A stretch of DNA of 54,564 bases from Bacteroidota bacterium (GTDB lineage Bacteria; Bacteroidota; Bacteroidia; AKYH767-A; OLB10). The DNA lies in assembly GCA_947453935.1 (NCBI GenBank), contig CANGJU010000005.1, positions 1-54,564 on the forward strand, in the 5' to 3' direction. Of the stretch, positions 16,441 through 19,241 are shown piece after piece. The translations under genes were made by a program, and so were the position numbers. Each line of letters starts with the position of its first letter. Positions within the stretch are counted from its first letter, which is position 1. A model generated the notes under the pieces. It was given only the letters and a program-made list of their open reading frames with translations, was not told where the DNA came from and did not search any database.

Positions 16441-17463
16441 ATGAAACTTGTTAGTATTAATACACCCAAAGGTCCCGCGGTAGCGTTTTATGTGAATGGA
16501 AAGATTTATCCGTATGCCGAAATAGCATCTGTAAAAGGTATCTCAGCTCCGTTTTCAATGAAAGAGTTATTAGAAGGAGAGGAGAAATCAATGAATGCTG
16601 CCCGTGAAATGGAATTAAATATCATCGATGGTAAAATCGATTTCGCGGGATTGGAATGGAACTCAGTTAATATGTTAGCTCCTGTTCCTCAGCCTACTTC
16701 TTGTCGCGATGGGTATGCGTTTCGTCAGCATGTGGCTGCCGCTCGTCGTAATCGCGGAGTAGAAATGATTGCTGAGTTTGATGAATATCCGATTTTCTAT
16801 TTTACGAATCATAATGCGATTCAAGGGCCCGGAGATATTTATTGTATGCCTGATCATTTTCGACAGTTGGATTTTGAATTGGAAGCAGCTGTTGTTCTTG
16901 GTAAACGCGGGAGAAATGTGAAGGCTAAAGATGCTGATCAATATATCGCAGGTTATATGATCATGAATGATATGTCGGCTCGCCTTTTACAAATGGAAGA
17001 AATGAAATTGAATTTAGGTCCTGCAAAGGGAAAAGATTTTTCAACTGTAATTGGGCCCTATATGGTGACTCCCGATGAGTTGGAAGCATTTAAAGTATCA
17101 GCTAAAAAGGATCATGAAGGAAATAATTATAACCTCGCAATGAAATGTTGGGTTAATGGGGTGCAGGTAAGTGAGGGAAATATGGCTGATATGGACTGGA
17201 CTTTTGCTGAGATTATTGAACGTTGTGCTTATGGCGCTGATATTTTCCCTGGTGATGTAATCGGTTCTGGTACCGTTGGAACAGGTTGCTTTCTGGAGTT
17301 AAACGGAACAGGGAAATTAAATGACCCGAACTATCCGGTTCAATGGCTTCAAGAAGGTGATGTGGTGGAAATGTCGATTGATGGATTAGGCTGCTTGCAA
17401 AACACTATTAAAAAGGAAAGTTCAGACTTTTCAATATTGAATCTCAAGAAGAAACAGCATTAA
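16441..17463 (+). CDS. Fumarylacetoacetate hydrolase family protein
   Basis: 340 aa; DYE FAH-domain features (DFELEAAVVLGKRGRN, GYMIMNDMSAR, KGKDFSTVIGPYMVTPDE, GDVIGSGTVGTGC); divergent from hmgA, consistent with tyrosine catabolism. Confidence 0.88.
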   Translation: MKLVSINTPKGPAVAFYVNGKIYPYAEIASVKGISAPFSMKELLEGEEKSMNAAREMELNIIDGKIDFAGLEWNSVNMLAPVPQPTSCRDGYAFRQHVAAARRNRGVEMIAEFDEYPIFYFTNHNAIQGPGDIYCMPDHFRQLDFELEAAVVLGKRGRNVKAKDADQYIAGYMIMNDMSARLLQMEEMKLNLGPAKGKDFSTVIGPYMVTPDELEAFKVSAKKDHEGNNYNLAMKCWVNGVQVSEGNMADMDWTFAEIIERCAYGADIFPGDVIGSGTVGTGCFLELNGTGKLNDPNYPVQWLQEGDVVEMSIDGLGCLQNTIKKESSDFSILNLKKKQH

Positions 17464-17466
17464 AAT

Positions 17467-17496
17467 AAAAAAGTCCAGACATTGTCTGGACTTTTT
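17467..17496 (+). terminator. Rho-independent terminator after the FAH-family gene
   Basis: AAAAAGTCCAGAC ATT GTCTGGACTTTTT; perfect stem and T tract 4 nt after the stop. Confidence 0.92.
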
Positions 17497-17522
17497 ATTT
17501 TGTGGAGATTCAGTCTTTAAAA

Positions 17523-17847
17523 ATATCAGAGGGGAGGCAAGCTCCCCTTCCGATATCAACCTAAAAACCTAACCATTTTTTTTTCATTAACTTTTGTTTT
17601 AGTCAGCCCGAAGTAGCCTTACGGGGCTACTCCATAACTGACAATCAACCTGAAAAGCTAACCATGCTTTTGATTAAAGATTTTTTAAATTTCAAGTTGT
17701 CTATTGAGAGTAGCCTTACGGGGCTACTCTCTAGACGTTTAACCTAAAACACCAAAACCATTTAATCTTGCCTTACGGGGCAAAATGTTTTTATTGTAAT
17801 TGGAAGTTTAAAAATCAAAAACCTTACGGGGTTTATAAATTTCAAAT
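17523..17847. repeat. Array of five two-part hairpins; units 2-5 share the apex CC-TTACGG-GG
   Basis: Inner stems: GGGGAG/CTCCCC (17531-17547), AGTAGCC/GGCTACT (17612-17631), GAGAGTAGCC/GGCTACTCTC (17706-17731), TTGCC/GGCAA (17768-17783), AAACC/GGTTT (17819-17834). Outer stems: ATATC/GATAT, GTCAG/CTGAC, GTCTA/TAGAC, CATTT/AAATG, GAAGTTTA/TAAATTTC (one G-U). Units 1-3 are followed by AACCTAAAAACCTAACCAT, AACCTGAAAAGCTAACCAT and AACCTAAAACACCAAAACCAT. Confidence 0.85.
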
Positions 17848-17875
17848 CCAAACAGTATCTTATTTTCAGAACGAA

Positions 17876-17894
17876 AGATTTAATTGCTAAATCT
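17876..17894. other. Small perfect hairpin downstream of the array
   Basis: AGATTTA attgc TAAATCT, 7 bp stem and 5 nt loop. Confidence 0.4.
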
Positions 17895-18023
17895 GGGTTG
17901 TCTAACGGAAGCACTTATTCTTTGGTTACATTTTTTCAAAAGTTTTTTTATTTCAATTATTGTTACGGCAAAATAGAAATCAAACAACACTATTTTGTAA
18001 TTTCGCAATCACAAAAAATTACC

Positions 18024-19241
18024 ATGGGAAGCTTTAAGTTAAATACAATTGAGGAAGCATTGCAAGATTTGCGTGAAGGGAAAATTATTATTGTTGTAGA
18101 TGATGAAGACCGAGAGAATGAAGGTGATTTTTTAATCGCCTCTCAAAGCGTTACACCAGAAGTAGTAAATTTTATGGCGACGCATGGTAAGGGATTAATA
18201 TGCGTTTCTATTTCAGAAGCTCGTTGTGAGGAGTTGCAGTTACCAATGATGGTAAATACTAATACTGCATCGCATGAAACCGCATTTACTGTTTCGGTTG
18301 ATTTGTTGGGTAATGGATGCACAACGGGTATATCGGCATCAGACCGTGCAAAAACAATTCAGGCGATGATCGATGTCAATACAAAGCCTTCTGACCTTGG
18401 TCGTCCGGGACATATTTTTCCATTGAAAGCAAAAACAGGTGGTGTACTTCGAAGAGCAGGTCATACAGAAGCTTCTATGGACCTTGCATCTTTAGCAGGT
18501 TTTTATCCATCAGGTACCATCGTTGAAATTATGAATGAAGATGGCTCAATGGCTCGACTGCCACAACTAATGGAAATAGCAGAGCGCTTTAGCATGAAGA
18601 TCATCTCAATCGAAGCACTTATAAAATACCGTTTAGAGCACGAAACATTAATCCACAGAAACATTGAAGTGGATATGCCAACTGAATACGGGAATTTTAA
18701 ATTGATAGCCTACACACAATCAAACAATGGTATGGAGCATCTGGCTTTAGTAAAAGGAGAGTGGGATAAAGATGAACCAGTTCTTGTTCGAGTGCATTCA
18801 TCTTGTTTGACAGGTGATATTTTTGGATCTTGTCGTTGTGATTGCGGTCCGCAATTGCATCAAGCCATGAAAAAAATTGAAGCAGAAGGTAAAGGTGCAA
18901 TCGTTTACATGAACCAAGAAGGAAGAGGTATTGGTCTATTGAATAAACTAAAAGCCTATAAATTACAAGAAGAAGGTTTAGATACTGTTGAAGCTAATTT
19001 GCAGCTCGGATTTAAAATGGATGAAAGAGATTATGGTGTTGGTGCACAAATTATCCGTGACTTAGGAATTGCTAAAATGAAATTGATGTCGAATAATCCT
19101 ACAAAGCGTGCAGGACTTATTGGATACGGATTAGAAATTCTGGAACGCGTTCCAATCGAAATAGAAGCAAATGAGCATAACGAATTTTATCTTAAAACTA
19201 AAAGAGATAAAATGGGACATTTATTAAAATCCAAAGATTAA
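18024..19241 (+). CDS. ribBA: Bifunctional 3,4-dihydroxy-2-butanone-4-phosphate synthase / GTP cyclohydrolase II
   Basis: Rib[32 protein letters not shown]; Rib[34 protein letters not shown]. The ORF track begins at 17898, but [20 protein letters not shown] (ATG 18024) is the likely start. Confidence 0.93.

Follow-up and report, generated by a model that had tools for sequence, protein, structure and literature searches.

A predicted multi-hairpin noncoding RNA gene with an ECF-type promoter, divergent from ribBA in one family of uncultured Bacteroidia

Introduction

The CsrB and RsmZ sponge RNAs, which titrate the CsrA protein, are built of many repeated stem-loops with short linkers between them. 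EutX is known to sequester the ANTAR protein EutV. In enterobacteria, MicA and RybB are sigma-E dependent sRNAs that are short, Hfq-dependent and equipped with a single seed. In ANTAR RNAs, the hexaloop must carry an A at position 1 and a G at position 4 (PMC8934654). In Bacteroides, the intergenic sRNAs GibS and FopS are associated with RbpB, and GibS is transcribed from PM2, a non-canonical promoter with near-palindromic –10/–30 elements (PMC7366714, PMC11697453). Post-transcriptional regulation outside this genus is little known in the phylum. Control of type IX secretion genes by an ECF sigma factor, SigP, is known from Porphyromonas gingivalis (PMC4800418, PMC8265659).

The locus considered here lies in a contig of an uncultured Bacteroidota bacterium, and the window is the whole stretch of DNA that was analysed, 54,564 nucleotides in length. 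A first-pass annotation had described in it, upstream of ribBA, five successive two-part hairpins, four of them around the same invariant apex, and had proposed a multi-hairpin ncRNA, a long ribBA leader, a protein-binding sponge or a REP/MITE-like element. The present analysis indicates that the array most likely represents a previously undescribed predicted regulatory RNA gene of about 430 nt, with its own stress-type promoter and terminator. The locus is thus a conserved, well-delimited predicted RNA with promoter, modules and terminator, which, if expressed, would open RNA-based control to direct study in a group of uncultured Bacteroidia that usually lacks an RbpB-type RRM protein.

The array RNA shares with GibS and FopS the intergenic location in Bacteroidota and an intrinsic terminator at its end. 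However, FopS consists of a single-stranded 5′ stretch and one terminator hairpin, is multicopy and is bound by an RRM protein, whereas the array RNA occupies one locus and carries 2–5 modular hairpins, and RRM_1 proteins (PF00076) were found in only 5 of the 26 family genomes, being absent from most array carriers. An RbpB/FopS-type sRNA was therefore rejected, and the conserved partner is probably not an RRM protein of the RbpB kind. The repeated stem-loops and short linkers recall CsrB and RsmZ, and a titration logic would be possible, but a CsrA/RsmA sponge requires GGA in its loops and the array loops are CCGUAA, CUGUAA and CCAUAA. Likewise, the array resembles EutX (Rli55) and the ANTAR dual-hexaloop RNAs (PMC8934654) in repeating six-base-loop stem-loops within a small RNA; nevertheless, CCGUAA has C at position 1 and U at position 4 instead of A1/G4, and the loop-to-loop spacing is far larger and variable. 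With MicA and RybB it would share control by an envelope-stress ECF sigma factor, which for the array RNA is predicted, but no sequence or structural relationship.

The absence of a named family, as suggested by the first-pass annotation, was borne out by Rfam 15, which gave no match in the window at the gathering threshold, and in a relaxed scan the best sub-threshold matches were unrelated sRNAs and miRNAs far below their cut-offs. Additionally, neither tRNA nor tmRNA was found, no FMN riboswitch matched in the window, and 6S RNA (RF00013) matched neither in the window nor in six family genomes. By the tests run, the array RNA is not a member of an Rfam family, a ribBA leader, a REP element, a Csr sponge, an ANTAR RNA, a FopS sRNA or 6S RNA; in its working, it resembles a multi-module regulatory RNA.

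Structure of the array

The features of the locus are given in Table 1, with the five hairpins numbered as in the first-pass annotation. The 5′ end of the RNA was inferred from the promoter, and its 3′ end was placed at the terminator.

Table 1. Coordinates of the predicted RNA gene, its parts and its neighbours in the window
Feature	Position	Strand	Basis
Predicted noncoding RNA, ~430 nt (5′ end near 17896)	17467..17896	-	Promoter, terminator, fold, family homologues
ECF-type promoter GTAACC-N16-CGTTA (–35 AAC, –10 CGTT)	17903..17929	-	Exact motif match
5′ hairpin GATTTA-GCAAT-TAAATC	17877..17894	-	Hairpin at same place in relatives
Conserved single-stranded UCGUUCU element, 3′ of the 5′ hairpin	17868..17874	-	Present in most relatives
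Small hairpin, CCGUAA loop (unit 5)	17819..17834	-	Sequence; variable among relatives
Small hairpin UUGCC-CCGUAA-GGCAA (unit 4)	17768..17783	-	Sequence
Linker AUGGUUUUGGUGUUUUAGGUUAAAC + two-part CCGUAA hairpin (unit 3)	17699..17766	-	Covariance model R1, 52.3 bits
Linker AUGGUUAGCUUUUCAGGUUGAUU + GUCAG/CUGAC outer stem + CCGUAA hairpin (unit 2)	17602..17672	-	R1, 82.3 bits (unit belongs to the R1 training set)
Linker AUGGUUAGGUUUUUAGGUUGAU + hairpin with variant CUUGC loop (unit 1)	17525..17583	-	R1, 34.1 bits
Intrinsic terminator, bidirectional, common to FAA-hydrolase gene (+) and RNA (-)	17467..17497	both	Terminator found on both strands
ribBA promoter –7 box TAATTTCG (relatives: TAnnTTTG, consensus from PMC7366714), 3′ of array	17998..18005	+	Alignment of relatives
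ribBA (DHBP synthase / GTP cyclohydrolase II), constant neighbour	18024..19241	+	Pfam PF00926, PF00925
FAA hydrolase family gene, convergent	16441..17463	+	Pfam PF01557; other genes there in relatives

The array sequence at 17523-17847 was found as the first-pass annotation had claimed. The apex sequence CCTTACGGGG occurs in four exact copies in the window (17617, 17714, 17771 and 17822), all inside the array, where 0.54 matches would be expected in the window even allowing one mismatch, and the arms differ between units yet pair. Both strands of the region fold far better than dinucleotide shuffles, and by these shuffle controls the five-hairpin array is real.

On the minus strand, a unit consists of a linker (for example, AUGGUUUUGGUGUUUUUAGGUUGAUU), then GUCAG and a spacer, a covarying stem closed by the CCGUAA loop and, after a second spacer, CUGAC. 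The hairpins with CCGUAA hexaloops, 2–5 per RNA, are connected by G/U-rich linkers containing AGGUUGAU. Nearly all genomes hold 2–5 CCGUAA-type loops per array, with CUGUAA and CCAUAA as rare variants. Most units are followed by a conserved linker (plus strand CTGACAATCAACCTAAAA..CTAACC), which means that the sequence separating them is not random. The linker types seem to depend on position, with GGGUUUUGUUUGGUUUUAGGUUGAU first, UGGUUUUGGUGUUUUUAGGUUGAUU in the middle and AUGGUUAGCUUUUCAGGUUGAUU last, suggesting that the array is ordered rather than the product of simple recent tandem duplication. The first-pass annotation had assigned an outer stem to every unit; in relatives, the GTCAG/CTGAC type of units 1–3 is the sole one to recur, and the small-unit stems CATTT/AAATG and GAAGTTTA/TAAATTTC are, as a rule, not retained. 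A small hairpin at the unit 4 position is also present in the g1, g2 and g8 genomes. The 5′ hairpin is very different in sequence among relatives, being GATTCA/TGAATC in G004, AAACCT/AGGTTT in G007 and GCAATG/CATTGC in G022.

Among the relatives, too, the arms covary while the loop stays fixed. In the inner stems of 24 distinct units, 95.5% of the cells were paired, and 26 double-change cells were counted versus 7.4 in shuffles; the covariation score reached 0.319, compared with 0.153 (sd 0.015) in shuffled sets and at most 0.106 in sliding controls. Base pairs thus covary beyond the controls, as in a structured noncoding RNA, and this covariation, together with the shuffle-tested folds, backs the earlier proposal of selection on RNA structure. 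Additionally, the closing pairs C-G and U-A covary in G001 and G004, which favours the CCGUAA hexaloop over a GUAA tetraloop with a bulge, a fold that is also disfavoured by its energy (–4.4 versus –9.5 kcal/mol for the hexaloop).

Strand and limits of the RNA

The array probably forms the body of a free-standing predicted noncoding RNA gene that is encoded on the minus strand and diverges from ribBA. Positions 17466-17893 fold with –144.7 kcal/mol (z –10.2) on the minus strand and –115.7 kcal/mol (z –6.2) on the plus strand. Among the non-Watson–Crick changes in all inner stems, 19 are G-U pairs if read on the minus strand versus 10 on the plus strand; in alignment A1, wobble pairs numbered 10 on minus versus 3 on plus (p = 0.09), which is weak evidence taken alone. 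Furthermore, the outer-stem variants CUGGC and CUGAU pair with GUCAG on the minus strand only. With minus as the most likely strand of the RNA, the apex would be GCC-CCGUAA-GGC and not CC-UUACGG-GG, and the first-pass annotation would have read the array on the wrong strand.

A plus-strand RNA, belonging either to the upstream gene as a long 3′ UTR or to ribBA as its 5′ leader, would be in keeping with the constant position of the array 5′ of ribBA in the same orientation, with the arrays that in several genomes start directly behind the preceding gene's stop codon, and with a fold that beats shuffles on the plus strand too; the outer stem given earlier for unit 5 also contains a G-T pair on that strand. 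However, such an RNA is considered very unlikely. ribBA has its own TAnnTTTG promoter 3′ of the array and close to the ribBA start codon, and the upstream gene changes among relatives. In the g7 and g6 genomes, the gene beyond the array (rlmE, lipocalin-like) points away from ribBA, and therefore no source of plus-strand read-through exists there. Terminators that work only on the minus strand, the minus-strand promoter and the weaker plus-strand fold all weigh against it as well. Hence the long ribBA leader proposed earlier was set aside, the predicted array RNA running the opposite way.

The minus-strand RNA also exceeds the limits first drawn for the array, as the feature extends to the promoter on one side and to the terminator on the other. 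The strong terminator noted at 17467-17496 was recovered and works in both directions. In eight relatives (G011, G012, G013, G016, G017, G019, G021 and G023), the far-end terminator works on the minus strand only, and in several relatives it is the CCGUAA hairpin itself, as with AAAAATGCTGCCCCGTAAGGCGGCATTTTTT in G013. Such array ends, together with the use of the apex by some genuine terminators within the family, would also suit a row of back-to-back ordinary terminators insulating ribBA from its neighbour without any RNA function. This explanation is nonetheless highly improbable, given that internal units carry no T-run on the minus strand, that the linkers and the GUCAG/CUGAC stems are conserved, and that the array has a conserved promoter of its own ahead of it. 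Ordinary intrinsic terminators sharing the CCTTACGGGG apex, such as AAAAAGCGACCTTACGGGGTCGCTTTTTG, were seen elsewhere in G006 (L149) and G022 (L152, L158 and L168).

Distribution and neighbourhood

Using blastn against 41 related genomes, the array was detected in 16, all from the family of the source genome. ribBA was found in 25 of the 26 family genomes and, as verified by reading the upstream regions and by R1, a covariance model of the unit, homologous arrays adjoin it in 24 of these 25. Of the outcomes that the first-pass annotation had named as refuting its view, those checked went the other way: homologous arrays occur in the family, covariation is strong and Rfam gave no hit at the gathering threshold. 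Its multi-hairpin ncRNA is supported. In G010, ribBA (locus L066) stands without an array, and in G009 (locus L067) two degenerate units and the promoter are left; the two genomes could possibly represent stages of array loss. When 346 Bacteroidia genomes were searched with the covariance model, every match at E 5e-4 lay within the family, and 85,488 species genomes scanned for the pattern yielded only the loci of this group plus scattered matches in unrelated taxa, such as chance would produce. Among the groups searched, the array RNA is confined to one family of uncultured Bacteroidia. Of the neighbours, ribBA alone is constant; the far side is occupied by an FAA hydrolase, a glycosyltransferase, a lipocalin-like gene or rlmE, the last three being named by reading their sequences.

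Palindromes in tandem with an identical centre could also be expected of a DNA-level element, such as a REP/MITE-like repeat, a protein-binding array or a recombination site, and CCTTACGGGG is dispersed in 49 copies in G011. However, each genome holds a single array locus beside a fixed neighbour, with no dispersed copies, which speaks against the REP/MITE-like element proposed at first; phage and plasmid collections contained no array homologues. Furthermore, the linkers are conserved and non-palindromic, a promoter and a terminator are associated with the array, and G-U pairs are tolerated, and the G011 copies that were inspected lie inside or against genes and lack stems. A DNA-level element is therefore the least probable of the explanations weighed here.

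The G011 copies of CCTTACGGGG comprise 24 in forward and 25 in reverse orientation, compared with 0 and 3 for the reversed control, whereas the other family genomes checked contain only 1–7 copies. The eight copies inspected (L151, L157, L162, L167, L171, L174, L176 and L178) are mostly extended as YCCTTACGGGGAT, as in a dispersed over-represented oligonucleotide.

The ECF-type promoter and its other occurrences

In 19 of 24 loci, the interval separating ribBA from the array contains the pattern AAC-N16/17-CGTT on the minus strand; these genomes span several genera but are related and not independent. The opposite strand has one occurrence, and in 200 shuffle sets, the mean was 0.85 and the maximum 4. 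The pattern is located 53–146 nt from the first hairpin apex, and was not found in G001 (where TACG replaces AACG), G011, G016, G017 and G021. The –35 AAC, the spacer of 16–17 nt and the –10 CGT are those of ECF sigma-dependent transcripts, as judged from the sequence. Taken together, the anatomy, strand, promoter and conservation of the RNA gene are supported by computation.

The longer motif GTAACC-N15/16-CGTTA was searched across all family genomes, where it was not commoner genome-wide than its reversed control, and the evidence for it therefore resides in its placement. The sites are mostly intergenic, most of the intergenic ones inspected lie directly before a gene and, at the inspected loci, 13 sites stand 8–60 nt before an ORF in the correct orientation versus none in the opposite direction. 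The motif precedes porV in two genera (L098 in G007 and L137 in G014) and is found 116 nt before porK/gldK in G011 (L133). It also occurs before genes for a thioredoxin-like lipoprotein and a PAS kinase, read as such from their sequences. In G012 (L100), an ECF-like promoter, GTAACCCACAAAATTATTCTGCCGTTA, lies 34 nt before the start of an rpoD-like sigma factor gene, and a near-identical site was observed in G019 (G019:C26:30491-30517). The shared motif appears to define a putative ECF regulon that includes type IX secretion genes. However, both porV sites overlap a TAnnTTTG box, and the link to the type IX secretion system (T9SS) is therefore only suggestive. In the PorXY-SigP system of P. gingivalis, the ECF sigma factor acts on por genes, much as the shared motif here precedes porV and gldK; unlike at the array locus, no RNA is described in the available parts of those reports (PMC4800418, PMC8265659).

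In several relatives, TTACATCTGTAA-like palindromes (TACAnnTGTA) or TGTAAGA repeats are found between the divergent ribBA and RNA promoters. The palindromes are reminiscent of BlaI/MecI-type operators.

Possible function and partners

Transcription from the promoter in the direction 17929-17903, directed by an alternative, ECF-type sigma factor, would yield an RNA of ~430 nt, in which a 5′ hairpin, the UCGUUCU element and several linker–hairpin modules would be followed by the terminator next to the FAA-hydrolase gene. Each module would consist of a G/U-rich single-stranded linker with AGGUUGAU and then a two-part hairpin capped by the CCGUAA hexaloop. The repeated single-stranded linkers may serve as contact sites, either as mRNA-pairing seeds or as protein sites, and the covarying hairpins may act as rigid, stable spacers, displaying the linkers while protecting the RNA. 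We infer that the predicted RNA is transcribed, is controlled by stress and acts in trans, most likely as a multivalent regulator in an envelope/secretion (T9SS-linked) ECF regulon.

As for the mode of action, base-pairing with mRNAs is put forward tentatively, protein sequestration is somewhat more doubtful, and another structural role is unlikely; pairing through the AGGUUGAU linkers and the binding of several copies of a protein are regarded as about equally plausible. A sponge or scaffold RNA, whose repeated caps or linkers would bind several copies of one protein, competes with mRNA base-pairing and not with the minus-strand RNA gene itself, and is no better than a doubtful possibility. 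It would account for the near-identical modules, repeated 2–5 times per RNA, whose apex is invariant and whose linker is nearly so, as well as for a module copy number that varies freely, as titration predicts. Nevertheless, the candidate RRM partner is as rare in the family as stated above, and the loops carry neither the GGA of CsrA sponges nor the A1/G4 of ANTAR RNAs. UUCG loops are known elsewhere as stable, and the CCGUAA loop may likewise be constant for stability instead of recognition, since the same apex caps ordinary terminators in G006 and G022; if so, the weight moves from the loops to the linkers as contact sites. A wider reading, which is speculative, is that of a new modular RNA class of Bacteroidota, ECF-sigma-driven and single-copy, whose 2–5 interchangeable modules would form a valency-tunable sponge or a multi-seed regulator. 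If this were true, the envelope/type IX secretion regulon would be linked to post-transcriptional control.

Targets were also sought by complementarity. The apex complement has few copies outside arrays, except in G011, and was rejected as an RNA target, the G011 copies inspected being mainly intragenic and in both orientations. The exact linker complement ATCAACCTAAA was not in excess outside arrays, and inspection of 20 non-array sites revealed no shared target. Most of these sites are intragenic, and two are located 21 nt before genes for exported proteins that are apparently not orthologous.
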